Positions 1,597 through 34,152 of a DNA stretch of 34,242 nucleotides are shown in pieces. The translations under genes were made by a program, and so were the position numbers. The notes beneath the pieces are model-generated. The model had not been told where the DNA came from and ran no database searches. It saw nothing but the letters and a program-made list of their open reading frames with translations. Within the stretch, counting starts at the first letter, position 1. Each line of letters begins with the position of its first letter. The stretch spans positions 1-34,242 of the forward strand of contig VGRJ01000042.1 of NCBI GenBank assembly GCA_016875405.1, in the 5' to 3' direction. The stretch comes from Deltaproteobacteria bacterium. Its GTDB lineage: Bacteria; Myxococcota_A; Polyangia; Polyangiales; Polyangiaceae.

Positions 1597-4095
1597 TCAG
1601 GCGAGCACCCTCAGGGACCCGCGCACGATTCCGTAGCCGCCCTCGGCTCCGAGATCGCGATAGACCTGCCGCGGCGGGAGCTCTCCCGAGAGCAGGCGAC
1701 GATACCCGGCGACGATGCGCGCGACCTGCTCCGGGGCCTCACGGACGAGCTCGACGCGGACGCGCCGAACTCCGGCATCCCGGAGCGGCCCCCACAGCTC
1801 GGCGCCGCTCTGGGCGCGGGCGTGAAAGACCGTGTTGCGGCATCCGACGTCCGCCTCGACCGGATGCTCCATGCCGGCGCGATCCCGCAGCGACAGGCGG
1901 TGGCGTTCGCACGGGCGGCCGCAAGTCAGGTGGTCAGCCCCCTCCGAGAGCAGGGCGGCGATGACGCAATGTTCCATGTGAAAAAGCGCCATCGGGTGGT
2001 GCAGCACGACCTCGGCGCGGGGCCCGAGACCGCCAGCGAGCAGGCGAACGAGCTGGCTCGAGTCGAGATCGAACGCCGGCGTGAAGCCGGCAAGCCCGCG
2101 GCGGAGGACCTCGGCGGCGCTGAGGCGGTTCACGACGTTGAGGGAAAAGTCGCCGATCCGCAGCCAAGGACCCGAGGGTGAGCTTCGCAGCGCGCCGAGC
2201 CCACGGACCAGGATGCCATCGGGCTCGAGCGAGGCGAGGAAGCGGTCGATCTTCTCCTCGCCCGGCTTGCGAATGCGAGGTGGCGCAAGTCCGATCCAGC
2301 TCGCGTTCGACGCCCGAAGCGCGGCGAAGGCGCGGCCGGTGCCGGTGAGCTCGAGAAAGTCCAGGTACACCCCATCGGCCCCTGCGGCGAGGGCCGCCTG
2401 CGCCTGCGGCAGGCTGCGACACAGGACGAAGAGGCCGCCTGGTAGCTCGGGCGACGCGGTCGGCAGCGACGCGTCGACAGGGGGGCCCTCGAGAACGGCG
2501 CCGTCCGGTCGATCGGGGGCGAGCCCCGCTTCGAGCGCGGTGACGAGCGCGCGGCGGGCGCGATTCAAGGCCGAGGAGGCAATGTGGGCCCGCTCCGGCA
2601 GGTCGATGGTCAGCGAGCCCAGCTCGAACGCCGAGTCGCCGAGGCGACCGAGCTTCTCCCGGAGCGCCGACTCGCCGACGCCCTGGCCTCGCGCAACGTC
2701 GACGACCCCGTCGAGTGAGACCGAAGCCGTCGCGGCGCCGGCTCGCCCCTCGAGCACGGCTGCCCCCCCGATGCGCCCGCGAATCGTAAGGTCGAGCCGA
2801 CGTCGGCCGCGCTCGGCGAGGACCCGCAGGGCGCGATCCGCGGCAGGATCGTCGGTGATAAAGACACGGCGACCGACCATCGCGCTGGAGACGGCTCGTT
2901 CGCGGCCCAACCAAAGCACGGCCTTCGAGCCGGCAGGCGCCATCGGCACGTCGCCTCCGTCGACCACCAAGGACCACACTCGCCCGCCGACCTCGCCCTC
3001 CGACGCGAGACCGCCCTCGACGAGCACACCATGGCCGCGAGCGACCGGCGCCGCGAGCGTGACCACGAGCTCTCCTCGCCGCGCCCCGATGCTGGAGACG
3101 ACCCCGACCTCGACGCCGCGATGATCCGAGCCGCGCCCCTCGACGAGGCGCTGATGGTTGACGCCTGCGAGAAAGCCAGGACCGGAGCCGCGGCTGAACG
3201 TGACGAGCGCGCGACGTCGGTCTTCTTCGGTCGGCGCCGACGCTCGAGCGAAGACCGCATCGACGGCCCGACGGTAGAGCGCGGTGGTCGCGGCGACGTA
3301 TTCGGGGGCCTTGAGACGCCCCTCGATCTTCAACGACGCGACGCCCAACGCGCAGAGCTGCGGGACCAGCTCGCTCGCCTCGAGATCTTGGGGTGACAAC
3401 AGGTAAGCGCGGTCGCCGAGCGAGCGCTCCTCGCCGTCGACGAGGAGCTCGTAAGGGAGACGACACGACTGGGCGCACGCGCCGCGGTTCGCGCTTCGAC
3501 CGCCAATCGCCTCGCTGGTGAGGCACTGCCCGGAATAGGCGATGCAGAGGGCTCCGTGGACGAAGACCTCGATCTCGACGTCGCTCTTCTTGCGGATGTC
3601 GGCGATATCCGCGAGGGACAGCTCGCGCGCGAGGATGACGCGGCGCGCGCCGAGCTCGTGAGCCAGCTCTACCGCGTCGGCGTCGGTGCAGGTCATCTGC
3701 GTCGACGCGTGCAGCGGGAGCCGAGGGGCGACGGCCTGCGCGAGCCTTGCGCAGCCGAGATCCTGAACGATCAGCGCATCGACCCCAGCCTCGTCGCAGC
3801 GACGGATCGCCCCCCTCGCGGCGTCGAGCTCGTCGTCAAAAAGGAGCGTGTTGAGGGTGACGTAACCCCGCACGCCATGGCCGTGCAAAAAGCGCATGAC
3901 CTCGGCGAGCGCGTCGTCGCCGAAATTCGCCGCGCGGGCGCGCGCGTTGAACGCCTGCAGGCCAAAGTAGACCGCATCCGCGCCAGCGCGGACCGCGGCC
4001 TCGAGGCAGGCACGGTCCCCCGCCGGGGCAAGCACCTCGGGAGGACGCGCCGACGCCCCTCGCTCGCCGAGCCTGGGTGGAGCGCTCGATGCCAT
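1597..4095 (-). CDS. Peptidase U32 family protein, RlhA/YegQ-like, with long C-terminal extension
   Basis: An 832-residue protein. The N-terminal TIM-barrel-like U32 domain runs from about residue 20 (PEVLAPAGD, ADAVYFGL) and contains the family signature EVFVHGALCIAYSGQCLTS at about 177-195. Cysteines near 185, 192, 208 and 212 fit the iron-sulphur ligands described for U32 proteins. The length and the second half, which ends in a cysteine-rich stretch (MEHCVIA, TCGRPCERHRL, GCRNTVFHA), match the larger U32 proteins that carry a DUF3656-like region. U32 members of the RlhA/TrhP type hydroxylate cytidine or uridine in rRNA or tRNA; others are annotated as collagenases. An RNA-hydroxylase role is the better inference. 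The ATG at 4093-4095 has GAGAGG four bases upstream; a GTG directly before it is possible. The stop of the upstream gene lies inside this GTGATG, so translation is probably coupled. Confidence 0.85.
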   Translation of the reverse strand: MASSAPPRLGERGASARPPEVLAPAGDRACLEAAVRAGADAVYFGLQAFNARARAANFGDDALAEVMRFLHGHGVRGYVTLNTLLFDDELDAARGAIRRCDEAGVDALIVQDLGCARLAQAVAPRLPLHASTQMTCTDADAVELAHELGARRVILARELSLADIADIRKKSDVEIEVFVHGALCIAYSGQCLTSEAIGGRSANRGACAQSCRLPYELLVDGEERSLGDRAYLLSPQDLEASELVPQLCALGVASLKIEGRLKAPEYVAATTALYRRAVDAVFARASAPTEEDRRRALVTFSRGSGPGFLAGVNHQRLVEGRGSDHRGVEVGVVSSIGARRGELVVTLAAPVARGHGVLVEGGLASEGEVGGRVWSLVVDGGDVPMAPAGSKAVLWLGRERAVSSAMVGRRVFITDDPAADRALRVLAERGRRRLDLTIRGRIGGAAVLEGRAGAATASVSLDGVVDVARGQGVGESALREKLGRLGDSAFELGSLTIDLPERAHIASSALNRARRALVTALEAGLAPDRPDGAVLEGPPVDASLPTASPELPGGLFVLCRSLPQAQAALAAGADGVYLDFLELTGTGRAFAALRASNASWIGLAPPRIRKPGEEKIDRFLASLEPDGILVRGLGALRSSPSGPWLRIGDFSLNVVNRLSAAEVLRRGLAGFTPAFDLDSSQLVRLLAGGLGPRAEVVLHHPMALFHMEHCVIAALLSEGADHLTCGRPCERHRLSLRDRAGMEHPVEADVGCRNTVFHARAQSGAELWGPLRDAGVRRVRVELVREAPEQVARIVAGYRRLLSGELPPRQVYRDLGAEGGYGIVRGSLRVLA

Positions 4096-6425
4096 CACAC
4101 CTCTCGCCCGTCACGGAGGAGCGGCCACACGCCCGAAATGGCGCCGAGGAGCTGCGCGATGGGCGCGTACTCGGGCGGCAAGAGTCGACCCGCGACGACG
4201 AGCGAGCCGAAGCCCGCAGGAATGGCCACCATCAAAAATGCCGTCGATGCCCGCGCGCGCCAGCGCTGGGCGAGCGCGACGGCCAGCGCCGCGTCGCGGA
4301 CGTCGTCGGTGACCGTGGCGACCTCGTCGAGGCGAGCCGCCGGGTCCTCGGTCGCGCGTCCGACCCCGCCCAGGACCACCGCGACGTCCGCCGTACGGAG
4401 CGCCGCGTCGTCCTCTTTCGCGTGACCGAGCACGACCACACGCGCGCCGACGTCCCTCAGCCGCTGCACGGCGGCGCCGCGCTCGTCCTCGCGGACCTCG
4501 GCCCTGAGATGATCGATGTCAAGCGCGCGCCCAATGGCCTCGCAAGTCGCGGCGGTGTCCGGCGACATCAACACCGGTTCGATGCGCGCGTCGAGCAGGT
4601 GCTGGACCGCCGCGCGCGCGCCGGGACGGAGGCCGTCCTGCAGCGCGCACACCCCGAAAAGTCGGCCGGAGCGGGCGACGAGCAGGACGGTCCGCCCCGC
4701 AGCCTCCAGCTTGGCCATCGCGCCCTCTGCGGCCGCGACGCTGACGCGCCGCTCGACCATCAGCTCGCGCGTCCCGACGACGACGGCCTCGCCCGTCGCG
4801 CCGACGCCAGTGACGCCTCGTCCTTCATGGCTTCGGGTGTTTCGGACGAGGTCCGCGGCGAGCCCGCGCTCGCGCGCCGCCCGACGGAGGGCGAAGGCCG
4901 TGGGGGTCGACTCCGACGCGAGCGCCGACGCCGCGAGCGCAAGGACGCCATTCGCGGCCGCGCTCCGAGGCTGCGCGCCGGCCCCGCCGAACAGCTCGAT
5001 CTCGACGAGCTCGGGCTCGCCGCGAAGCAGTGTCCCGCGCGCACAAAAGACGGCCGCGGTCGCGCGTCCAGCGCGGTCCCATGCGGCGGCGGTGCCGTAG
5101 AGGATGCCGCGATCGAGCGCCTCGAGGGTGCCGCGCGCGACCGTCAACCCGGGAACGACCACGAGCGCCGCGCTCGAGAGCGCCGCATGCACCGCGACGG
5201 CCACCATCACCACCTCGATGGGTTGCGCCCGGAATGCATACGCGCTCCCGGCGGCGAGGACGGCGAACAGCGGCGAGAAGCGCACGGCGAGGCGTCGGGC
5301 GCCTCGAACCACCTCGGCGTCGACCTCAGGCCGGCGCGCGGCCTCGAAGAAGCTCCGCAGCAGCGCTCGCTCGGTACCAGCGCGGAGCACTCGCCCCCGC
5401 AGCTCCCCCGAGACGATGCGCAAGCCGGCCGCGACCACGTCCCCCGCGCGCCGACGCATGGTGCTCGCGCCGCTCACCCACGAGGCGACGACCGCGTCAC
5501 CTTCGACCACTTCGACGTCTGCGGGAACGAGCGCATCGCTGCGCAAGACGACCTCGCGCCCCGGAGGCGACACGTCCGAGGCTCCACCGCCCAACCGCTG
5601 CAGCAACCACGCACGCCTACGCTCGGTCGGACGCGCGGCCAGCGATGCGACCGAAGCGACGATGGCGTCGGCGACTACGATCGTGGAGGCAAGGAACAAC
5701 GCGCGCTCCGCGAACGCACCGCCCGTCGACAACCGCGCAGCCACCGCGACGAGAAACCCGAGCACCGGCGCGACGACGGCGAGGCTCCAGTGAGGCGCCG
5801 CCTCGTCGCGCACGAAGCTCCCGTCGACCGCGAGGCGCCGCCCGCGAGCCGTCGCCGCGTGTCCCGCGATGGTCGCGACGGCGACACCGACGAGGAGCAA
5901 CCTCGCGACGTGCACGAGCGAGCTCGGGGCGGCCATCTCGAGCGCCATCGCGAGGAGGCCAGCGACGAGCGTGAGCCCCAAGAGGAGGCCGCCCATGTCC
6001 GGCGTAGGCGTGTCGACCGGTGAAGCGTCTTCGCGCTGCTCGAGGCTCGTCGCGACGGGCTCGATCAGCTCATCGAGCGCGAAGCGTGGGGCGTCGGGAA
6101 GTGGGGCCGTGCGCCGCACGACCTCGTCCGCCGAAGCGACCGGCGCGAGCAACGAGGGTGGCACCGAGGGAGATCGCGAGGCACGCCCGACCGAAGCGGA
6201 AAGCTCAGGTTCGAGCCCGAGGAAGGTCCGCCGACACGTCGAAAATCCGCAAAAATAACGGGTTTGCGCATCGAAGATGGCGACGTGCCCCGCGCGGAGA
6301 CCGTCGAGCTCGGCCCCACAACCATCGCATCGGACGACGGCGGAGGCGGTGCGCGCGGCGCGACCTTCGGTCGCCTCGACCGATGAGCCGGGCTCTCGCG
6401 CGAGCGTGTCGCTCACCTCGCTCAT
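4095..6425 (-). CDS. P-type (P1B-like) ATPase homologue lacking the catalytic motifs, probable pseudoenzyme
   Basis: A 776-residue protein with the layout of a heavy-metal P-type ATPase. An N-terminal four-cysteine knuckle (CDGC at 33-36, CGFSTC at 59-64) is followed by paired membrane helices (about 146-190 and 211-262), an actuator-like domain, further helices (382-425), P and N domains, and two last helices (about 725-745 and 755-770). Alignable landmarks include RGILYG (439-444), EGRGVTG (534-540), ALQDGLRPGARAAV (594-607) and the ADVAVVLGG (679-687) end of the P domain. Yet the signatures are altered: VFCARGTLL replaces the DKTGT loop (C461 for the phosphorylated Asp), VSGAST replaces TGES, VVVPG replaces the CPC site, SPDT replaces TGDN, and GHAKED replaces GDGxND. 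It therefore should not pump ions by the usual cycle. The frame is intact and overlaps both neighbours. A regulatory or metal-binding role is speculation. Confidence 0.85.
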   Translation of the reverse strand: MSEVSDTLAREPGSSVEATEGRAARTASAVVRCDGCGAELDGLRAGHVAIFDAQTRYFCGFSTCRRTFLGLEPELSASVGRASRSPSVPPSLLAPVASADEVVRRTAPLPDAPRFALDELIEPVATSLEQREDASPVDTPTPDMGGLLLGLTLVAGLLAMALEMAAPSSLVHVARLLLVGVAVATIAGHAATARGRRLAVDGSFVRDEAAPHWSLAVVAPVLGFLVAVAARLSTGGAFAERALFLASTIVVADAIVASVASLAARPTERRRAWLLQRLGGGASDVSPPGREVVLRSDALVPADVEVVEGDAVVASWVSGASTMRRRAGDVVAAGLRIVSGELRGRVLRAGTERALLRSFFEAARRPEVDAEVVRGARRLAVRFSPLFAVLAAGSAYAFRAQPIEVVMVAVAVHAALSSAALVVVPGLTVARGTLEALDRGILYGTAAAWDRAGRATAAVFCARGTLLRGEPELVEIELFGGAGAQPRSAAANGVLALAASALASESTPTAFALRRAARERGLAADLVRNTRSHEGRGVTGVGATGEAVVVGTRELMVERRVSVAAAEGAMAKLEAAGRTVLLVARSGRLFGVCALQDGLRPGARAAVQHLLDARIEPVLMSPDTAATCEAIGRALDIDHLRAEVREDERGAAVQRLRDVGARVVVLGHAKEDDAALRTADVAVVLGGVGRATEDPAARLDEVATVTDDVRDAALAVALAQRWRARASTAFLMVAIPAGFGSLVVAGRLLPPEYAPIAQLLGAISGVWPLLRDGREV

Positions 6426-7642
6426 CCAGCGCTCGCGGCGGCCTCATGAGCCGACAGCATCGTGTCGAGCCGCTCGACGGCCTCGTCGATCTCGGCGTCC
6501 GTGACGACGAGCGGAGGTGTGAAGCGCAGCGCCGACGCGCCCGCCGCCGTCACGAGCAGCCCGTGCTCGCGTGCCGGGCCCAAGAAATCTCGGGCGACCG
6601 TGCCGTCGTTCAGCACGAGCGCCCGGAGCAAGCCGAGCCCACGCTCCCCTCGGCAGAGCTTTGGGTGTCGCGCCGCGACGGCCGCGAGCCCCGCGCCGAG
6701 TCGTTCGCCACCGACCTTGGCGCGCTCCAGGAGGCCCTCCTCGGCGAGCACGCGCAGGACCGTTCGACCGACCGCCGAGGCCAGCGGATTTCCTCCGAAC
6801 GTCGAGCCGTGGGTCCCGGTCGGGAGGCTCTCGGCGAGGTGGTCGCGAACCAGCATCGCGCCGATGGGGAAGCCTCCTCCCAACCCCTTCGCGAGCGCGA
6901 CGGCATCCGCGCGGACGCCGCTGTGCTCGGCGGCGAGCATGCGCCCCGTGCGCCCGATGCCCGTTTGAACCTCATCCATCGTCAGCAGCGCGCCGTGCTC
7001 GTCGCACAGCTGACGCAGCCCCTCGAGAAAGCCGGGAGGCGCAGGCAGCACGCCACCCTCGCCCTGGACAGGCTCGACGTGAATCGCCGCGACTTCCGGG
7101 CCCATCGCACGACGTACGGCGTCCAGATCGCCATAGGGCACGTGGTCGACACCCGCGAGCGGCGGGCCGAACCCCACGCGATAGGCCTCGGTGCCGCCCA
7201 TCGTGACCGTGGCCATCGTCCGGCCGTGAAAGGCCCGCTCGAAGCAGATCAAGCGAATGCGTTCGACCTGCCCCTTGAGATGAAAATGGCGCCGCGCGAG
7301 CTTCAAGACGGCCTCGTTGGCCTCTGCGCCCGAGTTGCAAAAGAAGGCGCGGTCGAAGCCCGTCGCCCGGCAGAGCTCGTCTGCGAGGAGGATGTTCTCC
7401 TCGTTGTAGAAGTAGTTCGACGTTTGAATGACCCGCGTCGCCTGCTCCGCGATCGCGCGCTCGAGCACCGGATGGCCGTGCCCGAGGCAACACACGGCGA
7501 CTCCGGCGCAGAAATCCAGGTAGCGAGCACCATCGACGTCGAAGAGCTCGCTCCCTCGGCCGCGCGCGACGACGAAGGGCTGAGGCCGGTAGGTCGCGAG
7601 GAGGCGCTGCTGCGCAAGCGCGAGGAGCTCGGTCGTTCCCAT
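6422..7642 (-). CDS. argD: Acetylornithine/succinyldiaminopimelate-type aminotransferase (class III, PLP)
   Basis: A 406-residue fold-type I class III aminotransferase. NSGAEANE at 103-110 binds the PLP phosphate, DEVQTGIGRTG at 223-233 holds the aspartate that contacts the pyridine nitrogen, and K252 in ALAKGLGGGFPIGAML is the Schiff-base lysine. Length and the early YLDFCAGVAV...GHGHP segment fit ArgD, which makes N-acetylornithine in arginine synthesis and often also serves lysine synthesis. Other class III enzymes (ornithine or 4-aminobutyrate transaminases) cannot be excluded, and no other arg gene is in view. I chose the ATG at 7640-7642; upstream codons in the same frame give no aminotransferase sequence. 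The stop TGA overlaps the next gene's ATG (ATGA), so the two are probably translated together. It is the first gene of the leftward operon and divergent from grpE. Confidence 0.85.
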   Translation of the reverse strand: MGTTELLALAQQRLLATYRPQPFVVARGRGSELFDVDGARYLDFCAGVAVCCLGHGHPVLERAIAEQATRVIQTSNYFYNEENILLADELCRATGFDRAFFCNSGAEANEAVLKLARRHFHLKGQVERIRLICFERAFHGRTMATVTMGGTEAYRVGFGPPLAGVDHVPYGDLDAVRRAMGPEVAAIHVEPVQGEGGVLPAPPGFLEGLRQLCDEHGALLTMDEVQTGIGRTGRMLAAEHSGVRADAVALAKGLGGGFPIGAMLVRDHLAESLPTGTHGSTFGGNPLASAVGRTVLRVLAEEGLLERAKVGGERLGAGLAAVAARHPKLCRGERGLGLLRALVLNDGTVARDFLGPAREHGLLVTAAGASALRFTPPLVVTDAEIDEAVERLDTMLSAHEAAASAG

Positions 7643-7725
7643 AACTTGGGCATAGTGCGAGGGCCGTCGACCAGCAATCCGCGTCGAGCACACGGTCGAC
7701 GTTCACGCGAGCTCCGCCGCGAAGA

Positions 7726-7775: not shown

Positions 7776-8561
7776 ATGAGCGACGACCCGACCAGCCAGG
7801 CCCCCACTGACGAGACCTCCGACAAGCCGGCCGAGAGCGGTGCCTCCGAGGCGCCCGCCGAGGTGACGCCGCTTGCGGCCGCGGAGGCCCGCGTCAAGGA
7901 GCTCGAGGCGAAGGTCGCCGCCGCCGAGACCGAGGCGAAGAACAACCACGCGCGCACGCTTCGAGTGGCCGCAGACTTCGAGAATCATCGCAAGCGCTCG
8001 GCGCGCGAGGTCGAGGAGGCGAAGCGCAGCGGCACCCAGAGTGCGCTCGGCAAGCTGCTCCCGGTGTTCGACAATCTCGAGCGCGCGACCGGCCACCTCG
8101 ACGCCGCGACCGATACGAAGAGCCTGCTCGACGGACTTCGAATGGTGATGAAGCAGTTCGACGAAGCGCTCGGAAAGCTCGGCATCGAGCGCGTGGCGAC
8201 GGTGGGCAAGCCGTTCGACCCGATGGTCCACGAGTCGCTTCAGTTCGAGCACCACGACGGGCTCGAGGCAGGGCTCGTGTCGCGCGAGCTGCAGGCCGGC
8301 TACCGCCAGGGCGACGGGCTGCTGCGCCCGGCCCTCGTCGTCGTGTCGAAGGGCCCCGACCCCGAGGCGAAGGCGACAGCGAGCGGCGCGGAGGCAGCCC
8401 CGAAGGCCGACACGGACGCGAAGGCCGACACGGACGCGAAGGCCGACACGGACGCGAAGGCCGACACGGACGCGAAGGCCGACACGGACGCGAAGGCCGA
8501 CACGGACGCGAAGGCCGACACGGACGCGAAGGCTAACGCCGACACACAAGGCGAGAGCTGA
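7776..8561 (+). CDS. grpE: Nucleotide exchange factor GrpE with repetitive C-terminal tail
   Basis: A 261-residue protein. Residues 1-30 are acidic and disordered, 35-80 are the long coiled-coil helix (RVKELEAKVAAAETEAKNNH, then RVAADFENHRKRSAREVEE), and the four-helix and beta domains follow (LLPVFDNLERA, FDPMVHESLQFE, RELQAGYRQGDGLLRPALVVV). GrpE releases ADP from DnaK and so drives the chaperone cycle in the cytoplasm. Past the normal end of the family, near residue 192, comes an Ala/Asp/Lys/Thr tail built from seven identical KADTDA units, which is not part of known GrpE function. No dnaK or dnaJ lies in view. recO starts 40 bases downstream, so the two may be co-transcribed. Confidence 0.93.
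   Translation: MSDDPTSQAPTDETSDKPAESGASEAPAEVTPLAAAEARVKELEAKVAAAETEAKNNHARTLRVAADFENHRKRSAREVEEAKRSGTQSALGKLLPVFDNLERATGHLDAATDTKSLLDGLRMVMKQFDEALGKLGIERVATVGKPFDPMVHESLQFEHHDGLEAGLVSRELQAGYRQGDGLLRPALVVVSKGPDPEAKATASGAEAAPKADTDAKADTDAKADTDAKADTDAKADTDAKADTDAKADTDAKANADTQGES
8403..8528 (+). repeat. Seven perfect tandem copies of an 18-bp unit inside grpE
   Basis: The unit AAGGCCGACACGGACGCG occurs seven times without a mismatch from 8403 to 8528, each copy encoding KADTDA. A degenerate partial copy (AAGGCTAACGCCGAC) follows. Perfect identity, including third codon positions, points to recent expansion by slippage or unequal recombination. The unit length keeps the frame open whatever the copy number. 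Confidence 0.97.
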
Positions 8562-14957: not shown

Positions 14958-15932
14958 TCAGCCAGCCTTGATGGCGCGGACCTTCTCGGCCAACTCAGGC
15001 ACGGCCTTGAAGAGATCGGTCACCAGGCCGTAGTCGGTGATCTGAAAGATCGGCGCATCGCCGTCCTTGTTGATCGACACGATGACCTTGCTGCTCTTCA
15101 TCCCCGCGAGGTGCTGGATCGCACCGCTGATGCCGATCGCGAAGTAGAGGCCCGGGGCGACGACCTTGCCGGTCTGACCAACCTGGAGGTCAGACGCGCA
15201 GTAGCCGTTGTCACAGGCCGCGCGGCTCGCGCCGATCGCGGCACCGAAGGCGTCGGCGAGCGGGTTCAACAGGTCGTAGAACTGCTCCTTCAGCGCGCGC
15301 CCGCCGGCGACGACGACGCTGGCCTCCGCCAGCTCGGGGCGCTCGTTCTTTACCTGGTCGAACTTGACCCGCTCGATGCGGGCCCCAGCCTGACCGGCCG
15401 CGACCACCGCCACCTTCTCAATGGGAGCCGCCGCCCCCGTCGCCTCGGCAGCCGCGAACGCGCTCTGGCGCACGGACACGACCTGGACCGCGGAGTCGAT
15501 GACGCAGACGCCGAACGCGTTCCCTGCGTACATAGGGCGCTTATAGTGGAGCGTCCCTCCGCTCGCGCTCACCTCGGTGATGTCGGCGGCGTAGCCCGCC
15601 TCGAGCTTCCCGGCGACGCGCGGCAAGAGGTCCTTGCCGAAAGCGCTCGCTGCCGCGACCACGACCCCGAAGTCCTTCGCAACGGCGGCGACGGTGGGCG
15701 CGTAGGTCTCCGCGAGGTAGTGCTCGAGGGAGGCGTCCTCCGCGACGAGCACCTTCGCGGCGCCGAGCTTCGAGAGCTCTTCGGCGGCGCTCCCGGCGCT
15801 CGAGCCGAGCACCAGGATCGAATAGCTGCCGCCAAGCGCAGTCGCGGCGGTGCGAGCGAAGGTCACGGCCGAGTGGGTGGTCTTCTTGACCTTGCCCTCC
15901 GCGAACTCTGCAACGACGAGTACGTTTGCCAT
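14958..15932 (-). CDS. etfA: Electron transfer flavoprotein, alpha subunit
   Basis: A 324-residue protein. The N-terminal half is the ETF alpha/beta domain (MANVLVVAEFAEGKVKK). The C-terminal half is the FAD-binding domain, with VVAGGRALK, VGQTGKVVAPGLYFAIGISG, AIQHLAGMKSSKVIVSINKD and the family end APIFQITDYGLVTDLFKAVP. EtfA pairs with EtfB to carry electrons from acyl-CoA and other dehydrogenases to ETF-quinone oxidoreductase. The ATG at 15930-15932 has AAGGA about ten bases upstream. It follows etfB by 27 bases on the same strand, so the two form one transcript with beta first. Confidence 0.95.
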   Translation of the reverse strand: MANVLVVAEFAEGKVKKTTHSAVTFARTAATALGGSYSILVLGSSAGSAAEELSKLGAAKVLVAEDASLEHYLAETYAPTVAAVAKDFGVVVAAASAFGKDLLPRVAGKLEAGYAADITEVSASGGTLHYKRPMYAGNAFGVCVIDSAVQVVSVRQSAFAAAEATGAAAPIEKVAVVAAGQAGARIERVKFDQVKNERPELAEASVVVAGGRALKEQFYDLLNPLADAFGAAIGASRAACDNGYCASDLQVGQTGKVVAPGLYFAIGISGAIQHLAGMKSSKVIVSINKDGDAPIFQITDYGLVTDLFKAVPELAEKVRAIKAG

Positions 15933-15959
15933 GGTCTTAGTCCTTCCGTTCGTCGAGGG

Positions 15960-16784
15960 TCAGATGACCTTCGCCTCGTTCTTGAGTTTGTCGAGCAGCG
16001 CGTCCACATCGGCGACCTTCGAGCCGGCCTTGCGGGCGGGCGGGGCCTCGTACTTCACATAGCGGATGCGCGGTTTCTCGGCGGTGAGATCGCTGAGATT
16101 CTTCGTGTCGAGGGGCTTCTTTCGTGCCTGCATAATCGCGGGCAGTGGCGCGAAACGAACGCCCTCGTTGTACTTGAACGCCTTGTCGGTGGAGGCCGAG
16201 TAGACGCTGGTCGGCGCGACGACGCGCAGGTCGACCGTGAGGACCGCGGGGAACTTCACCCGCACCTCGAGAACACCGCCGTCGACCTCGCGACCGACGA
16301 GCACCGCGCCCGCTTCTTCACGGACGGTCGCAGCGAACGCTGCCTGCGGCCAGTCGAGGAGCTCGGCGAGGATCTGCCCGACCTGGTTCGAGTCGCCGTC
16401 GACGGCCTGCTTGCCGAGCACGACGAGGTCTGGCTTCTCGGCCTCGACGAGCTTGGCAATGGCCTTCGCGACGACGAGGCCGTCGAGCTGTTCGTCCGTG
16501 CACTCGACGCGGATCGCGCGGTCTGCGCCGGTCGCGAGCGCGCTGCGGAGCGTGGTCTCGACGTCCTTCGGTCCGAAGCTGACGACGACGACCTCACCCT
16601 TACGCACCTTCGTGGTCTTCCCGTCCTCGGTGAGGCGAAGCGCCGTCTCGAGGGCGTAATCATCGAAGGGGTTGGGCTTCCACTCGAGGCCGGTCGTGTC
16701 GATCTTCGACCCGTCGGCGGGGATCTTCACCTTGTTGGCGTTGTCGGGATCCGCAACGCGCTTGAGAGCGACGAGGATTTTCAC
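15960..16784 (-). CDS. etfB: Electron transfer flavoprotein, beta subunit
   Basis: A 274-residue protein beginning VKILVALKRVADPDNANKVK, with the AMP-binding ETF beta fold: NPFDDYALETALRL, VVVVSFGPKDVETTLRSALA and GKQAVDGDSNQVGQILAELL. The end (DVDALLDKLKNEAKVI) is the typical tail that contacts partner dehydrogenases. The start is the GTG at 16782-16784, which leaves the conserved KILVALKRV at the N-terminus; an in-frame codon at 16818-16820 would add 12 residues with no family match and would fall on the promoter. The GTG lies exactly seven bases after a -10-like TAAACC, so the message may be leaderless. Divergent from nadB. Confidence 0.94.
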   Translation of the reverse strand: MKILVALKRVADPDNANKVKIPADGSKIDTTGLEWKPNPFDDYALETALRLTEDGKTTKVRKGEVVVVSFGPKDVETTLRSALATGADRAIRVECTDEQLDGLVVAKAIAKLVEAEKPDLVVLGKQAVDGDSNQVGQILAELLDWPQAAFAATVREEAGAVLVGREVDGGVLEVRVKFPAVLTVDLRVVAPTSVYSASTDKAFKYNEGVRFAPLPAIMQARKKPLDTKNLSDLTAEKPRIRYVKYEAPPARKAGSKVADVDALLDKLKNEAKVI

Positions 16785-16791
16785 GCCCCAC

Positions 16792-16820
16792 GGTTTATTG
16801 AGAACGACGCACCGAGTCAA
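16792..16820 (-). promoter_or_regulatory. Candidate promoter of etfBA, predicted leaderless
   Basis: Read on the minus strand, TTGACT (16815-16820), a 17-bp spacer and TAAACC (16792-16797) are followed by seven bases (16785-16791) and then the etfB GTG. This is standard sigma-70 spacing with the start point falling at or next to the first base of the gene. The -35 is strong; the -10 matches at its TA and A positions only. Confidence 0.55.
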
Positions 16821-16822
16821 GG

Positions 16823-16853
16823 CGCGGGCCCGCGTTTTTCGAGGCGCGCCTCG
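16823..16853. promoter_or_regulatory. Two adjacent perfect palindromes in the etfB-nadB divergent region
   Basis: CGCGGGCCCGCG at 16823-16834 and CGAGGCGCGCCTCG at 16840-16853 are perfect palindromes separated by TTTTT. The first lies two bases upstream of the etfB -35 box; the second overlaps the position expected for the nadB -35. They could be operators for one regulator of both genes, or a hairpin with a T-run (16823-16839) that stops upstream transcription. The arrangement is seen; the role is inferred. Confidence 0.5.
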
Positions 16854-16873
16854 CGAAAGGCAGCGGCGTGGGC

Positions 16874-16886
16874 TACCTTACGTGCC
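16874..16886 (+). promoter_or_regulatory. Candidate -10 box of nadB, predicted leaderless
   Basis: TACCTT at 16874-16879 is followed by seven bases and the nadB GTG at 16887. No good -35 is visible 17 bp upstream (TCGCGA at 16851-16856). The same TACCTT-7-start arrangement occurs before the genes at 20161 and 32683. Confidence 0.5.
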
Positions 16887-18515
16887 GTGACCCGCACGAC
16901 GGACCTCCTCGTCATCGGGGGCGGCATCGCCGGCCTGACGCTCGCGCTCGACGCGGCAGCATCGGCGCGCGTCGTGGTCGTCACGAAGCGCAATCGCTTC
17001 GAGTCGAACACGGCGTACGCTCAGGGGGGGCTCGCGACCGTGCTGTCCCCGGACGACAGCCCCGAGGCCCACAAGGCCGATACGCTCGTCGCCGGCGCGG
17101 GGCTCTGCCACGAGGTCGTGGTCGACAAGTGCGTCCGCGAAGGTCCTGAGCGTCTCGCCGAGCTCATCGCCCGCGGCGCGCGGTTCGACATGCACGGGGA
17201 AAAGCTGGCGCTGACGCGCGAGGGCGGCCACTCGGCGCGCCGCATCGTGCACCACGCAGACGCGACGGGCAGCGAGATCCAGCGTGCGCTCGTCGCCGCC
17301 TGCGCCGCGCACCCGAACATCGAGCTCCTCGAGGAGCACACGGCGATCGACCTCATCATGCTGACGTCGTTCGGTGGGCCGGACCGCTGCGTCGGGGCGT
17401 ACATCCTGGACGAGTCGGCCTCGACCTCGAGCGCCCACAACGTCGAGACGTGGCTCGCGCGCGAGACGGTGCTCGCGACCGGCGGGGCGGGGAAGGTCTA
17501 CCTCTACACGACGAACCCGGACGTCGCGACCGGCGACGGCGTCGCGATGGCCTACCGCGCGGGAGCCGAGATCGGGAACATGGAATTCTACCAGTTCCAC
17601 CCGACCTCGCTCTATCACCCGCGCGCGAAGAACTTTCTCCTCAGCGAAGCCCTCCGCGGTGAAGGCGCAGTGCTGCGGCTCCCTGACGGGACGCCGTTCA
17701 TGGATCGGCACGACCCGCGCAAGGAGCTCGCCCCGCGCGATATCGTGGCCCGCGCGATCGACTACGAGATGAAGCGCGGCGGCTTCGAGCATGTGCTGCT
17801 CGACATCAGCCACAAGCCCGCCGACTGGCTGAGGCAGCGCTTTCCCACGATTCACGAGAGCTGCAAGCGCTGGGGGTACGATCTGACGAGCGAGCCGATC
17901 CCCGTCGTGCCGTCGGCTCACTTCATGTGTGGAGGCATCACCACGGATCTCCACGGGCGCACCACCATCCCCGGCCTCACCGCGATCGGCGAGTGCGCGT
18001 TCACGGGGCTCCACGGCGCGAACCGGCTCGCATCGAACTCGCTCCTCGAGGGTCTCGTGTTCGGGCACCGCGCGGCGGTCCGCATCGTCTCGCAGGTCTC
18101 CGAGCACGCGGGCGCGCCCTACCCCGAGGTGCCTGAGTGGCAGACAGGCGCGGCCGTTCCAAGCGACGAAGGGGTCGTCGTCACCCACAATTGGGACGAG
18201 CTTCGACGCACGATGTGGAATTACGTCGGCATCGTGCGCTCGGATGCGCGCCTTCGCCGCGCCGCGCGCCGCATCGCCCTCCTCCAAGAGGAGATCCGCG
18301 AGTACTACTGGAAGCATCTCGTGACGCGTGACCTCCTCGAGCTCAGGAACATTGCGACGGTCGCCGAGCTCATCGTCGGGTGCGCCTCCGCGCGCAAGGA
18401 GAGCCGCGGGCTGCATCACACCCTCGACTACCCCGACTCGGACGACCGCCTCCTCGCCGACACCATCGTGAAGCGCGGGGTCCCCGCTCACCTCCGGCCC
18501 GCGAGCTCGGTCTAG
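16887..18515 (+). CDS. nadB: L-aspartate oxidase
   Basis: A 542-residue flavoprotein of the succinate dehydrogenase/fumarate reductase family. The N-terminal dinucleotide motif LLVIGGGIAGLTLALDAA is followed by the FAD-contacting SNTAYAQGGLATVLSPDDS, the active-site region EFYQFHPTSLY and SEALRGEGAVL, then HFMCGGITTDLHGRT and ANRLASNSLLEGLVFGHRA. The C-terminal helical domain is complete. NadB oxidises aspartate to iminoaspartate, the first step of de novo NAD synthesis; nadA and nadC are not in view. The GTG at 16887 leaves only three residues before the FAD motif; the frame extends far upstream but through etfB and etfA antisense. A CPBP protease gene begins 16 bases downstream. Confidence 0.94.
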   Translation: MTRTTDLLVIGGGIAGLTLALDAAASARVVVVTKRNRFESNTAYAQGGLATVLSPDDSPEAHKADTLVAGAGLCHEVVVDKCVREGPERLAELIARGARFDMHGEKLALTREGGHSARRIVHHADATGSEIQRALVAACAAHPNIELLEEHTAIDLIMLTSFGGPDRCVGAYILDESASTSSAHNVETWLARETVLATGGAGKVYLYTTNPDVATGDGVAMAYRAGAEIGNMEFYQFHPTSLYHPRAKNFLLSEALRGEGAVLRLPDGTPFMDRHDPRKELAPRDIVARAIDYEMKRGGFEHVLLDISHKPADWLRQRFPTIHESCKRWGYDLTSEPIPVVPSAHFMCGGITTDLHGRTTIPGLTAIGECAFTGLHGANRLASNSLLEGLVFGHRAAVRIVSQVSEHAGAPYPEVPEWQTGAAVPSDEGVVVTHNWDELRRTMWNYVGIVRSDARLRRAARRIALLQEEIREYYWKHLVTRDLLELRNIATVAELIVGCASARKESRGLHHTLDYPDSDDRLLADTIVKRGVPAHLRPASSV

Positions 18516-28151: not shown

Positions 28152-31100
28152 GTGTCGAGTCCGGGAGAGTTTCTCGAGCGCTTCGACGTGCAGCGCGAGG
28201 TGGGGCGCGGGGCGGCGGGGGTCGTGTTTCAGGCGGTTCATCGTCCCACGAGCGAGGCCGTCGCGCTGAAGCTGCTCCATCAGCCGGACGCAGACCCTGG
28301 CGAGCTCGATCGCCTCTCGGTCGAGGGGACGCTGCTCGAAGGGCTGCACCACCCCAGCATCGTCCGGGTGATCGACTTCGGGAACGTCGGCGAGGAGCCG
28401 GTCGACCTCGCCGGTCAGCGCTTTCAGCCCGGAACTCCCTATGTCGCGATGGAATGGCTCGAGGGGCGCGACCTCGCCAGGGCCGTCGCCGCGGGTGGCC
28501 TCGATCTTCGCACGTCGCTGGAGTGCGCGCGTCAGGTGGCCGGGGCGCTGTCGGTGGCGCACGCGGCAGGGATCGCGCACCGCGACGTAAAGCCCTCCAA
28601 CATCTTCGTGCTCGCCGGCGCGGTGGAGCCGCGCGTGAAGCTCCTCGACTTCGGGGTCGCTTGTGCGGACGTGTTCACCGGCGGCAACATCAGCGGAACG
28701 CCAGCCTACATGGCGCCCGAGCAGGCGCGCGGCGAGCCGACGCTCGACGTCCGCTGTGACGTGTATTCACTGGGTGCGACGCTGTTCGAGCTGTGCACCG
28801 GAAGACCACCGCACGCCGGCGCCTCGTCAATCGCGACGCTCGCGAGGCTCGTCTCGACGCCCGCGCCACGCCTCTCCGAGGTGTGCGGCGACGTGCCCGA
28901 GGCGCTCGACGACCTCGTGGCCGACATGCTCTCGATCGAGTGGCGCGACCGCCCGGACAGCCGCGAAGTCGAAGCCCGGCTCGCCGCGCTGTGCGCGCAG
29001 CCAAACTTGCCGGCGCGAGCCGCCGCAGCCGACGTGAAGAGCGACTCCCCGCACTCGAGCGCGCGCCGTCTCCTGACGACGATGGTCGCGCTCGAGGTCG
29101 GGACGGGCGCGACCCGCGACGCGAAGCTCGCGTCGATGCGCGAGGTCGGGGCCGAAGCGGTGCGGCTCGGCAAGGACGCGGTCGTCGCGTTCTTCGGGGC
29201 CCGACGCGCGCACGGCGGCGAGGCCGCGAAGGCGCTCGAGATCGGGACGGCGCTCGCAGCGGAGGGAGCCAAGGTCGGCGTCGCGACGGGACGCGCACTC
29301 GTTCAGCTCGTACGACCTACCGGCGAGGTCGTCGACAAGGCCTCGACGCTCGCCCGCGAGGCGGCGGCGGGCCAGCTCGTGGCCGACGACACGACGGTCG
29401 AGCTTGCGCGCACGGCGTTCGAGTACGCGCCGTTCTCGGAGCGCCCCGCGGTGAGCGCGTACGTCGTTCGCCCAGCGGCAAAACGCGTCGACCTCGGCGA
29501 GTCGACGCCGTTCGTGGGACGGCAGGCCGATCTCGACACGCTCGCGGACGCGTTCACGCGTTGCATCGAAGGGCATACGCCGGTCGCGGTCAGCGTGTCG
29601 GGACCTCCCGGCATCGGCAAGAGCCGCCTCGCGCGCGAGTTCCTGGCGCGCCTCGACTCCCTCTTGACCGATCACGCCCCTCAGACCGCGCCATCGCACG
29701 GCACGTCTCCGCTCGTCGAGCGACGTGAACCCGGACACTTCCGTGTGGTCGAGGTCGCCTGCGACGCCTTCGCGCGTGCGCGCTCGCTCGGCACGGCAGC
29801 CGATGGCATCGCGGCACTCCTCTCGCTGCCGAAGGCCGCGCGAGCTCCCGAGATCGCCGCCGCCCTGGCTCCGCTCGACCTCGTGCACGACGAAGGCGAC
29901 CTGCTCGCGCGCTTCCTCGCGGGGGAGCCGCTCGGCGCCGAGAACGAGCCGAATCGGGCGCGCGACGTCCTCTACCTCGCGATGACCGAGGTCGTCCTTC
30001 GAGTCATCGACAACGAGCCCTGCGTGCTCGTACTCGAGGACGTCCAGTGGTCCGACCCTGAGTCGGTCGCCTGGTTCGGGCACCTCCTGACGCGCGCGGC
30101 GGGATGCCCGCTCTTCGTCCTCGCCCTGGCGCGGCCGTCGTTCTGGAAAGAGGCCGCGAGCGGCTTTCGCGCCCGAAACCAGGTGCGCATCGAGCTGCGC
30201 CCGATCGCACGTCGCGAGACGATGGAGATCGCCCGCGCGATCCTCGACTGCGACTACGGCGACCCGAACCTCGAGCGCATCGCGAAGCAGGCCTCGGGCT
30301 CACCGTTGTTCGCCGAGGAGCTCGCGCGGGTCGTCGCGTCGGGCAAGGAACTCGCGCTCATGCCGACGCTCGAGGCCGCGATCCAGGTAAGCCTCGATGC
30401 GCTCGACCTTGACGCGCGCGACGCCCTCACGCGAATGAGCATCTTCGGCATCGTGAGCTGGGACGCAGCGCTCGGCGCCCTCGGAGTCGTGAAGCCCGAC
30501 GAGGCGATCGACCGCCTGATCGAGAACGAGCTCGTCGTGGCCGTCTTGAAGTCGCGCTTCCCGAAGACGCGCGAGGTCCGCTTCAAGCACGCGCTCGTAC
30601 GCGACGTGACCTACGCCACAACGGGCGACACGCTGCGAAAGGAGCTCCACGCCCGAGCCGCCGCGTGGCTCGCCCGCTTCGGAGAGGACGCCGCGACGAT
30701 CGCCGAGCACTACGATCTCGGAGGCGAGCACGGCGAGGCGGCCGCCTTCTGGGAAGCCGCCGCGCGACGCGCCCTCACCGCGAGCGCGCTCGTCGATGCG
30801 CGGAAAATGGCCGATCGCGCGCTCACGTTCTCGAACTCGAACGAAGACGCGTTCCGTCGCGCGAGCCTGCTCGACGAGACCTTCTCGCGACTCGACGAGC
30901 GGGCCGCCGAGAGGGCCGAGGCGATCGAAGCGATGCGCGACCACGCGACCGACGAGGCGAGCGAGCTTCGGACGATGGGCGCGAGCGCACGCTACGATCA
31001 CGCGCGCTCGGCGGGGGTCGACGTCGACGAGCGGCTCGAAGAGGTGGTCCAACGTGCCACGGCGCTCGGCCTCGTCGACGAGGCGGTCCGCTGCTCCGCC

Positions 31101-32060
31101 ACGCTCGCGACGAGGCACGCCTTCGCAGGCGAGCACGCGCGCGCTGAGGAGGACGCGCGCAAGCTGCTCGTTCTCGCCGAGCAGCACGGCGTCGCAGCAG
31201 CGGCGGTGGACGCATGGCAGACCCTCGCCGTCGTTCATCAGACGCGCGGCGAGCTCGCCGCAGCGCTCGAGGCGCGACGAAGCGCGGCGCGCGCAGCGCA
31301 CGCGGCAGGCCTCAAGAACCGCGAGGCGATGCTCACGATCAACGTCGGCTTCGCGCTGACCACCATCGGAGCGCGTGACGAAGCGCGGCGCGCGATCGAG
31401 GAGGGCGTGTACATGGCCGAGCAGGTCGGCAGCGCGGGCACGGTGCGCCTCGGTCGGATGCTGCTCCTCGGCTGGGCCGCGCACTTCGGCGCAGACGCTG
31501 CGCTCGACGCCGAGCTCGTCGAGCCGCGTACCAGCGCCGATGAGGCCGCGGCGGGCGGGTGGGTCGGTCAGGATCGCGTGACGCTTGGAGTCCTGTTTTA
31601 TCGGGGCTGTGAGCTTCTTCGCGCAGGCGGAGAGAACCTTGCGCGCGCGCGCGCCCTCCTCGCGAAGGCGACCGACGCCTACCGCGCGACCGACAATCGC
31701 GACGTCCTGCCCGTCGCCCTCGGCTGCTGGGCCGAGGCCGAGCGACGCCTCGGCGAGCCCGAGAAGGCCGAAGCCCTCGCGCGCGAGGCCGCCGAGCTCG
31801 TCGAGTCGGGCGCGCCGAGCCTCCTCAGCGAGGCTCCGATCTTCCTTGCGCTCCACGATGCGCGCCTCGATCGGGGTGATTTTCAGGGCGCCGAAGAGGC
31901 GGTGAGCCGCGCGATGCCGCTCCTTGAGCGCCGCCTCCGAGGGCTCCGGCACACGCCGTATGAGCAAGCCTTCCTTCACCTGCCCGAGCACGCGCGACTG
32001 CTCGCCGCGGCCGACGATCTCGGGTGCCTGCCGCCCGAGCTCGAGACGCTTGGGGCCTAG
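28152..32060 (+). CDS. PknK-like Ser/Thr kinase with degenerate cyclase-like domain, AAA ATPase and TPR region
   Basis: A 1302-residue protein. The kinase domain (about 8-283) is complete: GRGAAGVV (18-25), K40, HRDVKPSN (143-150), DFG (166-168) and APE (188-190). Residues about 303-440 resemble a class III nucleotide-cyclase domain (DAVVAFFGA, EGAKVGVATGRAL, GEVVDKASTLAREAAAGQLV) but lack the metal-binding aspartates. A STAND/AAA_16-type ATPase follows (FVGRQADLDTL, Walker A GPPGIGKS at 484-491, Walker B CVLVLEDVQW at 623-632). The rest, to 1302, is helical TPR-like repeats. Such proteins couple signal sensing by the ATPase-TPR part to phosphorylation, as in MalT-like kinases of myxobacteria and PknK. 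There is no membrane segment, so it is cytoplasmic. Starts at GTG 28152. Confidence 0.9.
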   Translation: MSSPGEFLERFDVQREVGRGAAGVVFQAVHRPTSEAVALKLLHQPDADPGELDRLSVEGTLLEGLHHPSIVRVIDFGNVGEEPVDLAGQRFQPGTPYVAMEWLEGRDLARAVAAGGLDLRTSLECARQVAGALSVAHAAGIAHRDVKPSNIFVLAGAVEPRVKLLDFGVACADVFTGGNISGTPAYMAPEQARGEPTLDVRCDVYSLGATLFELCTGRPPHAGASSIATLARLVSTPAPRLSEVCGDVPEALDDLVADMLSIEWRDRPDSREVEARLAALCAQPNLPARAAAADVKSDSPHSSARRLLTTMVALEVGTGATRDAKLASMREVGAEAVRLGKDAVVAFFGARRAHGGEAAKALEIGTALAAEGAKVGVATGRALVQLVRPTGEVVDKASTLAREAAAGQLVADDTTVELARTAFEYAPFSERPAVSAYVVRPAAKRVDLGESTPFVGRQADLDTLADAFTRCIEGHTPVAVSVSGPPGIGKSRLAREFLARLDSLLTDHAPQTAPSHGTSPLVERREPGHFRVVEVACDAFARARSLGTAADGIAALLSLPKAARAPEIAAALAPLDLVHDEGDLLARFLAGEPLGAENEPNRARDVLYLAMTEVVLRVIDNEPCVLVLEDVQWSDPESVAWFGHLLTRAAGCPLFVLALARPSFWKEAASGFRARNQVRIELRPIARRETMEIARAILDCDYGDPNLERIAKQASGSPLFAEELARVVASGKELALMPTLEAAIQVSLDALDLDARDALTRMSIFGIVSWDAALGALGVVKPDEAIDRLIENELVVAVLKSRFPKTREVRFKHALVRDVTYATTGDTLRKELHARAAAWLARFGEDAATIAEHYDLGGEHGEAAAFWEAAARRALTASALVDARKMADRALTFSNSNEDAFRRASLLDETFSRLDERAAERAEAIEAMRDHATDEASELRTMGASARYDHARSAGVDVDERLEEVVQRATALGLVDEAVRCSATLATRHAFAGEHARAEEDARKLLVLAEQHGVAAAAVDAWQTLAVVHQTRGELAAALEARRSAARAAHAAGLKNREAMLTINVGFALTTIGARDEARRAIEEGVYMAEQVGSAGTVRLGRMLLLGWAAHFGADAALDAELVEPRTSADEAAAGGWVGQDRVTLGVLFYRGCELLRAGGENLARARALLAKATDAYRATDNRDVLPVALGCWAEAERRLGEPEKAEALAREAAELVESGAPSLLSEAPIFLALHDARLDRGDFQGAEEAVSRAMPLLERRLRGLRHTPYEQAFLHLPEHARLLAAADDLGCLPPELETLGA

Positions 32061-32682: not shown

Positions 32683-34152
32683 ATGGCGGTGAAGGGCCAG
32701 CAACGCTACCGGGTCGTCCAGCGACTCGCAGCCGGCGGCATGGCCGAGGTCTTCCTCGCCGAGAGCGCAGGGCTCGAGGGGTTCAAGAAGAAGGTCGCGA
32801 TCAAGCGCGTCCTCCCCCACCTCAGCGAGAAGAAGCGCTTCATCTCGATGTTCCTCGACGAGGCGCGGCTGTCGGCGCAGTTCAACCACTCCAACGTCGC
32901 GCACGTGTTCGACATCGGCGTCGGCGACAACGCCTACTTCATCGTCATGGAGTACGTAGAGGGGACCGACCTCCGCACGCTCATGACGAACCTCGTTGAC
33001 CAAAGGCGGCCCGTGCCGCTCGAGGCCGCGCTCTACATCACGGAGCGGCTCTGCGAGGGCCTCGCGTACGCGCATGAGCTCACCGGCCTCGACGGAAAGC
33101 CCCTCAACGCCGTGCATCGCGACATGTCTCCGCCGAACGTGCTCATCTCGAAGTTCGGTGAGGTGAAAATCGTGGACTTCGGCCTCGCGAAGGCCTCGAC
33201 GCAACTCGAGAAGAGCGAGCCCGGGATCGTGAAGGGCAAGTTCAGCTACCTCGCTCCGGAGGCCGCGCACGGCATGGACGTCGACGCGCGCGCAGACATC
33301 TTCGCGGTGGGCGTCATGCTCTGGGAAATGCTCGCGGGGCGTAAGCTCTTCGAGGGGAGCACCGACCTCGACACGGTGCGCTTGATCCAGGCCGCCGAGG
33401 TCCCGCGCATCGCGAGCTTCAACCCCCTCGCCGCCGACCCCGACGTCGAGGCCATTCTCTCGAGGGCGCTCGCCCGTGACCGCGACCGCCGCTACCAGAG
33501 CGCGCGCGAGCTCGGGCGCGACTTGACGAAGCTCCTCTTCCGAATGGCGCAGCCCGTCGACGCGTTCGACATCGCCGATCTGGTGCGCGTCACCACCGCC
33601 GTCGAGGAGCCCGCCGCCGCCGTCGCGGGCATGGAGACGCTCGATAAGCTGATCGACGATACGCTGCTGCGCTTCACCTCGCTCCGTGAGCGTGGCGCAT
33701 CCCAGACGAGCGCGATGGCGAGCATCGCGCCGCCGTCGATGGAGACCCCGAGCGCATCGGTGCGGCGTCTCGAGCACTCGTCGTCGGATTCCCCGGTGGA
33801 GCACTCGATCCCCGCGTCCGCGCTGCGCGAGGGGAACCTCTCCGCGCTCGAAGACGTCGTCGAGGCCCCGTCGATCAGTCCGCGCGCCGCGTCGACGGTC
33901 GCAAAGCGCCCCGGGGTCGATCCGGGCCTCCTCTCGGGGCTTGCCTCGATGGAGCAGCCGACGCTCCGCCCGCCCGAGGCGCCGCAACTGCCGGAGGAGC
34001 CGCTCCCGCTCGTCGTCACCTCGAAGAAGCCCGCCGCACAGCCGGCCTCGGATGACGCCGCCAGCGGAGGTTCGCTCGCGCTGAAGCTCATCCTGCTCGT
34101 GCTGATCGCGGCGGGAGCCGGAGCGGCCGCCTATTTCAGCGGCCTACTCTGA
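32683..34152 (+). CDS. Membrane-anchored Ser/Thr protein kinase
   Basis: A 489-residue protein. The kinase domain (about 8-285) has AAGGMAEVFLA (16-26), K41, E60, HRDMSPPN (145-152), DFG (165-167) and APE (191-193). The usual catalytic-loop lysine (HRDLKPxN) is serine here, a form I know from many myxobacterial kinases, so activity is still expected. A 170-residue Ser/Pro/Ala-rich linker follows. A single C-terminal transmembrane helix (about 465-487, LKLILLVLIAAGAGAAAYF) leaves almost nothing outside, so there is no extracytoplasmic sensor. It is the third gene of a same-strand set with the large kinase and the unknown protein. Confidence 0.9.
   Translation: MAVKGQQRYRVVQRLAAGGMAEVFLAESAGLEGFKKKVAIKRVLPHLSEKKRFISMFLDEARLSAQFNHSNVAHVFDIGVGDNAYFIVMEYVEGTDLRTLMTNLVDQRRPVPLEAALYITERLCEGLAYAHELTGLDGKPLNAVHRDMSPPNVLISKFGEVKIVDFGLAKASTQLEKSEPGIVKGKFSYLAPEAAHGMDVDARADIFAVGVMLWEMLAGRKLFEGSTDLDTVRLIQAAEVPRIASFNPLAADPDVEAILSRALARDRDRRYQSARELGRDLTKLLFRMAQPVDAFDIADLVRVTTAVEEPAAAVAGMETLDKLIDDTLLRFTSLRERGASQTSAMASIAPPSMETPSASVRRLEHSSSDSPVEHSIPASALREGNLSALEDVVEAPSISPRAASTVAKRPGVDPGLLSGLASMEQPTLRPPEAPQLPEEPLPLVVTSKKPAAQPASDDAASGGSLALKLILLVLIAAGAGAAAYFSGLL

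Follow-up and report, generated by a model that had tools for sequence, protein, structure and literature searches.

A predicted non-pumping family of P1B-type ATPase homologues, often encoded beside arginine biosynthesis genes, in the Polyangiales

P-type ATPases are regarded as obligatory pumps, and a family without catalysis that has kept the fold, the nucleotide pocket and the selective constraint would point to another use of this architecture in bacteria. Human TMEM94 (ERMA) possesses A-, P- and N-like domains and lacks TGES, and ATPase activity was undetected in a structural (cryo-EM) study, which argues that this protein is not an ATPase; it has ten helices, and its phosphorylation position is still occupied by an Asp, D417 (PMC12134183). 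Its role is disputed, and another paper argues for a Mg pump (PMC13322241). The N-terminal domain of LpCopA has been proposed to function as a cytosolic metal sensor that acts on the soluble domains of the active pump, and its metal site comprises three sulfurs, including those of a CXXC motif (PMC11970713). A literature search, with subscription journals mostly outside its coverage, returned no bacterial P-type ATPase family like the one described here.

Here, we report on a pseudo-P1B-ATPase, hereafter pseudo-pump, that is encoded on a 34,242-nucleotide stretch of DNA (contig VGRJ01000042.1, the window), and on its relatives in the same order. We give about even odds (roughly 0.5) to the protein being a regulator or scaffold that is anchored in the membrane, responds to nucleotide and metal, is linked to arginine and does not pump.

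The pseudo-pump gene and its altered catalytic motifs

The features of the locus are listed in Table 1. The pseudo-pump frame is open through 776 codons and a stop, and begins with an ATG located within the last argD codons (GGATGAG), so that the two genes share the sequence ATGA (6422-6425), while its end meets the start of the U32 gene at GTGTGATG (4095-4098). The clean frame and the overlaps of a few bases with both neighbours described in the first-pass annotation are thus present. The G+C content by codon position (0.785, 0.564 and 0.847) resembles that of both neighbouring genes, which fits a translated gene.

Table 1. Positions of the pseudo-pump, its domains and the neighbouring genes in the window
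Feature	Position	Strand	Basis
U32-family protein with DUF3656	1597..4098	-	directly downstream of pseudo-pump
Pseudo-P1B-ATPase, 776 aa	4095..6425	-	ORF, profile matches; 81 distinct members aligned
TRASH/L24e-like treble clef knuckle, residues 31-69 (C33, C36, C59, C64)	6219..6335	-	conservation and model
Helices MA, MB, M1, M2, residues 143-279	5589..5999	-	AlphaFold2 model
Actuator-like domain, residues 289-352, without TGES (V317 S318 G319)	5370..5561	-	alignment and model
Helices M3 and M4, residues 371-439, without CPC (S417 S418 A419)	5109..5315	-	alignment and model
C461-A-R-G-T replacing DKTGT	5031..5045	-	Asp at site in 0/81 members
N (nucleotide-binding) domain, residues 487-560	4746..4967	-	contact alignment, domain dN/dS
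Second P-domain half, residues 576-708, with QDGLRPGARAAVQHLLD and G667-HAKE-D672	4302..4700	-	alignment
Helices M5 and M6, residues 709-776	4098..4301	-	AlphaFold2 model
argD-type acetylornithine aminotransferase	6422..7693	-	directly upstream; TIGR00707 above cut-off
grpE	7776-8561	+	C-terminus carries the 18-base tandem repeat

Divergently from argD lies grpE, and this gene pair recurs at seven other loci (L038, L039, L042, L043, L045, L047 and L160). The tandem repeat in grpE (8401-8533; 7.4 copies with a 100% match) codes for a (DAKADT)n tail of GrpE, and its perfect identity suggests a recent expansion. Elsewhere in the window, a 1134-aa ORF (15111-18515) matches FAD-binding fumarate reductase/succinate dehydrogenase flavoprotein domains from about residue 598 to 1115, and a Pfam search with its first half gave no match. 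Two genes with a protein kinase domain are located at 28152-32060 and 32683-34152, the first of which also contains an AAA ATPase domain.

The homology of the window protein to P-type ATPases over its length, as initially proposed, is borne out by profile matches and predicted fold, which agree. Residues 288-766 match TIGR01525 (E 2e-45, 155.7 bits), and Pfam E1-E2_ATPase and Hydrolase are both matched above their cut-offs, although the P1B subfamily cut-offs all lie far above the score of this protein (155.7 vs 346 bits). Its best solved relative by sequence is CopA (E 1e-31), and the AlphaFold2 model, based on 77 family sequences (pLDDT 88, pTM 0.81), gave CopA 7r0g as the top whole-chain fold match (Foldseek E 1e-29). 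The P/N part of the model superimposes on nucleotide-bound CopA with a Z of 25.9 and an rmsd of 2.0 over 265 residues. The predicted order is knuckle, disordered linker, MA, MB, M1, M2, A, M3, M4, P/N, M5 and M6, so that by prediction the P1B domain order, the fold and the eight helices are retained; the confidence of the prediction was high for each of the eight membrane helices as well as for the cytosolic A, P and N domains.

The catalytic motifs diverge strongly. C461-A-R-G-T occupies the position of DKTGT, the TGE of TGES aligns to V317-S318-G319, TGD corresponds to S621-P-D623, and GDGxND to G667-H-A-K-E-D672. The first-pass annotation had considered every catalytic motif replaced, and this holds for the phospho-Asp, the TGES Glu, CPC and the GDG Asp, whereas D672 and the GT of DKTGT have been kept. 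It had also equated CPC with VVVPG, which is incorrect: the CPC metal site in M4 falls on S417-S418-A419, and VVVPG is found at the GLATP stretch just after it. The same losses are seen when 81 distinct members are aligned to 35 canonical pumps. The phospho-Asp and the TGES Glu are absent from all members (0/81 for each) and present in all pumps (35/35 for each), and the first Asp of GDG is found in one of 81 members compared to 35 of 35 pumps. The P-domain Lys, invariant in pumps, is Arg in 71 of 81 members, and the last Asp of GDGxND is present in 78 of 81. As judged from these residues, no member would be able to run the known P-type phosphorylation cycle.

A pump of unusual chemistry, in which Cys461 or a Ser replaces Asp as phosphoryl acceptor, would agree with these being the commonest residues at the site (Cys in 56/81 and Ser in 11/81). 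However, Leu, Ala, Val, Asn, Gln, Phe, Met and Pro occur there as well, a variety that rules out Cys461 as nucleophile, and the loss extends to the Mg-binding Asp, the P-domain Lys and the Glu of TGES, so that we consider such a pump very improbable.

Distribution, phylogeny and selection

One member per genome was found in 115 of the 144 genomes of the order (a tally of search rows that includes a fragment in G246), and searches of the other classes sampled in this phylum gave none. The absence from some genomes of the order is partly a contig-end effect, as illustrated by G020, in which argD-argF and the first part of the gene are present. Among the sequences collected, and with profile A1, the members, all without DKTG, scored at least 284 bits and DKTG-bearing hits at most 265.5 bits; the exception is L115, in which an in-frame stop results in two ORFs of 762 and 214 bits. 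An in-frame TGA inside the match or at its edge was seen in single members (L115, and in the search rows also L017 and L084), reflecting local decay or assembly error. A scan of genome contigs with peptide patterns of the window protein recovered only canonical-type pumps, from haloarchaea and Plantibacter, and is uninformative on the distribution of the family because these patterns are not family-conserved.

In a phylogeny built from 42 members and 35 pumps, the members were separated from the DKTGT-bearing pumps by a single split (SH-aLRT 100), which persisted on removal of the motif columns together with four long-branch rows, and no sister with intact motifs was found inside the member group among the sampled sequences. 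Since one change separates the members from the pumps, catalysis was most simply lost once, and the loss of the phospho-Asp, the dephosphorylation Glu, the P-domain Lys, the Mg-binding GDG Asp and CPC probably predates the diversification of the order. Orthologues thus share the residue loss, which the first-pass annotation had named as the mark of a dedicated pseudoenzyme family. A single decayed copy is ruled out by the 81 distinct motif-checked members and by the dN/dS values given below, and an assembly or sequencing artefact by the recurrence of the motif loss in more than 80 distinct sequences. At the level of sequence, an order-wide, dedicated family of presumably non-pumping P1B-ATPase homologues is therefore well shown.

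The dN/dS of close pairs was 0.07-0.19 (Nei-Gojobori), well under the value of one that would have spoken for decay, and as estimated in this way the family is shown to be under strong purifying selection. The pair from the window's own genus, L003 and L004, gave a ratio of 0.12 at a dS of 1.7, a divergence too high for the estimate to be reliable. When five independent pairs were pooled, three of them from one genus, the N domain, which the first-pass annotation had not singled out, was the slowest part, with a dN/dS of 0.010 (2 non-synonymous versus 70 synonymous changes). Next came the second P-domain half (P2, 0.028), M5-M6 (0.045), P1 (0.052) and A (0.056), and the linker was the fastest (0.25). 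The control consisted of a single canonical pump pair, from G256 and G263, with an N-domain dN/dS of 0.25; the pseudo-pumps of these two genomes, compared as a pair, showed no N-domain replacement at all. In L025, the variable linker contains a long (DADS)n low-complexity tract. The dN/dS values bear on the idea that the gene is an unselected relic carried along between essential genes. Tight packing and probable translational coupling with the neighbours would agree with this, but a dN/dS of 0.07-0.19, its occurrence in 115/144 genomes and near-invariant family-specific residues speak against it; the dN/dS refutes this explanation, to which we give hardly any credence.

Compared to pumps, it is in the membrane helices that conservation fell furthest, with M3-M4 at 0.41 in members versus 0.70 in pumps, and is level in N (0.59 versus 0.57) and P2 (0.65 versus 0.68). 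This pattern of conservation and selection is what is expected if transport was given up while the cytosolic head retained a function. A family-specific conserved patch is present in the P domain (R600, G602, R604, Q608, D612, E616, R625 and E629), and conserved polar residues inside the membrane helices were looked for across the family, with none found. That the protein transports without phosphorylation, for example as a channel, whether passive or regulated, or by carrying metabolites of the arginine pathway, would be compatible with the confident prediction of all eight helices and with the metabolic nature of the operon. Yet it is improbable with no conserved polar residue in the membrane and with the membrane regions having lost most conservation relative to pumps.

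Nucleotide pocket, cysteine knuckle and gene neighbourhood

The nucleotide contacts of the CopA N domain, which we take to be E457, H462, G490, G492 and G501 (numbering of the archaeal protein, by alignment), are all present in 46 of the 81 members, and at least four of them in 71. Because they occur in most members and on both sides of the deepest fork of the family, nucleotide binding is likely ancestral, and is likely kept by most members. In the window protein, three of the five remain (G535 and G537 of GxG, and G551), and L502 and T507 replace E and H; the HP of the N domain is not kept and the GxG is. Binding of a nucleotide by this protein itself is therefore doubtful, and may be weak or lost in its genus.

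The state of the pocket is relevant for another explanation, that of a purely structural membrane scaffold or chaperone, whose cytosolic domains only dock partners such as arginine enzymes, a canonical pump or others, and whose pocket is a folding relic. The family-specific residues form a P-domain patch and no transport path, and the window's genus retained the gene after partly losing the pocket, both of which agree with such a role. On the other hand, a relic pocket is expected to drift, whereas the N domain evolves most slowly (dN/dS 0.010) and most members have the contacts. We therefore judge a purely structural function unlikely, though worth keeping in mind.

The N-terminal four-cysteine knuckle noticed in the first-pass annotation turned out to be real, with cysteines that are near-invariant across members: C33, C36 and C59 are present in 77 aligned members and C64 in 74, the remainder being mostly gaps or truncated. 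The window protein has the pattern C33-x2-C36...C59-x4-C64, and the family consensus is C-x2-C ... F-C-x3/4-C with D-P-L-R-A in between. Predicted alone, the knuckle reached a pLDDT of 95, and the predicted fold resembles the treble clef of ribosomal protein L24e (Z about 5, rmsd 1.8 over 39 residues). Profile matches were weak, and were to TRASH, DUF7576, zf-FCS and YHS-type modules. The window knuckle scored 16.1 bits, below the threshold of 27 for TRASH_HVO_1752_C, and reached no library threshold, while the knuckle of L020 scored 27.7 bits against the DUF7576 threshold of 27. By analogy with these modules, the knuckle likely holds a metal site.

The members fall into two main gene contexts. 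In family f1, 26 of the 29 loci with upstream sequence come after argD or argD-argF, often tens of bases away. Outside f1, the pseudo-pump adjoins argH at 17 of 27 loci (15 directly upstream on the same strand and two divergent), and ten have no argH nearby. The argH-adjacent loci commonly have lysA after argH and a YkuD transpeptidase gene before the pseudo-pump; a YkuD L,D-transpeptidase gene just before the pseudo-pump with argH-lysA after it was noted for L069, L070, L162, L166, L167 and L169, all from outer families. With these two arrangements, after argD or argD-argF and before argH-lysA, the arginine link has thus outlived a large rearrangement, and the pseudo-pump is probably co-transcribed with the arginine genes. 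The argD/U32 neighbourhood proposed earlier therefore stands in part: the association with arginine biosynthesis (argD, argF, argH) is conserved, but the U32 gene adjoins the pseudo-pump in the window's genus alone, which rules it out as a family-wide context. A search for members in four genomes with argF beside argH (G015, G213, G028 and G032) found none. In family f1, a Fur-family regulator gene is often found downstream; at nine loci (L042, L048, L050, L053, L055, L056, L057, L060 and L154) it lies on the same strand within about 200 bases, and it may tie the locus to metal regulation.

The gene context also argues against the pseudo-pump serving a canonical P1B pump as its regulatory subunit, a pseudo-subunit in mixed dimers, with the arginine context as incidental. 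Canonical P1B pumps are indeed also present in most member genomes. However, no linkage to pump genes was seen at the member loci, the conserved linkage being to arginine genes, and there seems to be little to recommend such a subunit.

A possible regulatory role and comparison with known systems

The suggestion of the first-pass annotation that this protein is selected for a non-pumping role was supported by the family-wide motif loss, the low dN/dS and the predicted intact fold, and its examples, a metal sensor or a membrane scaffold, would fit. In the reading that we favor, a membrane-anchored regulator or scaffold responsive to nucleotide and metal, the N domain would bind adenine nucleotide, a capacity likely weakened in the window copy, and the TRASH-like N-terminal knuckle would bind metal on the cytosolic side. 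The family-specific P-domain surface could then relay the nucleotide and metal state to a partner, with neither a phosphorylation cycle nor ion transport being involved. The partner or target would most likely be found in arginine biosynthesis, whose genes pack around the pseudo-pump. What weighs against a regulator or scaffold of this kind is that the window copy has just three of the five nucleotide contacts and that the low N-domain dN/dS comes from five pairs, three of one genus, with one canonical control pair, and, against an arginine target, that operon neighbours need not interact and that 10/27 of the loci outside f1 are without argH nearby. A bolder version, in which a membrane receptor that reads nucleotide and metal tunes arginine biosynthesis, with transport dropped and the ATP-binding head strictly selected, is tentative, and we would not bet on it.

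By its sequences, the family forms a branch of pseudoenzymes within the P1B ATPases, and its gene context is conserved. It may offer a naturally occurring case of an N domain whose nucleotide binding is uncoupled from phosphorylation, and the recurrent arginine-gene context makes its role open to a direct test. Automatic annotation would label the members metal pumps.

With CopA, CopB and ZntA (TIGR01525), the pseudo-pump shares the domain order, the A/P/N fold, the eight helices and many structural glycines, but the residues for phosphorylation, dephosphorylation, Mg binding and the metal site are missing in the checked members. The knuckle resembles those of TRASH, YHS, MYM-FCS and L24e in the common four-cysteine pattern, the FCxxxC and the short helix, with weak profile and fold matches, and differs in the D-P-L-R-A stretch that is characteristic of the pseudo-pump family. 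A sensor role like that of the LpCopA N-terminal domain could apply to the pseudo-pump, although in LpCopA this domain sits on an active pump. Likened from its published description, TMEM94 is the nearest precedent for a non-pumping P-type homologue, but it is eukaryotic and has ten helices, compared to eight here.
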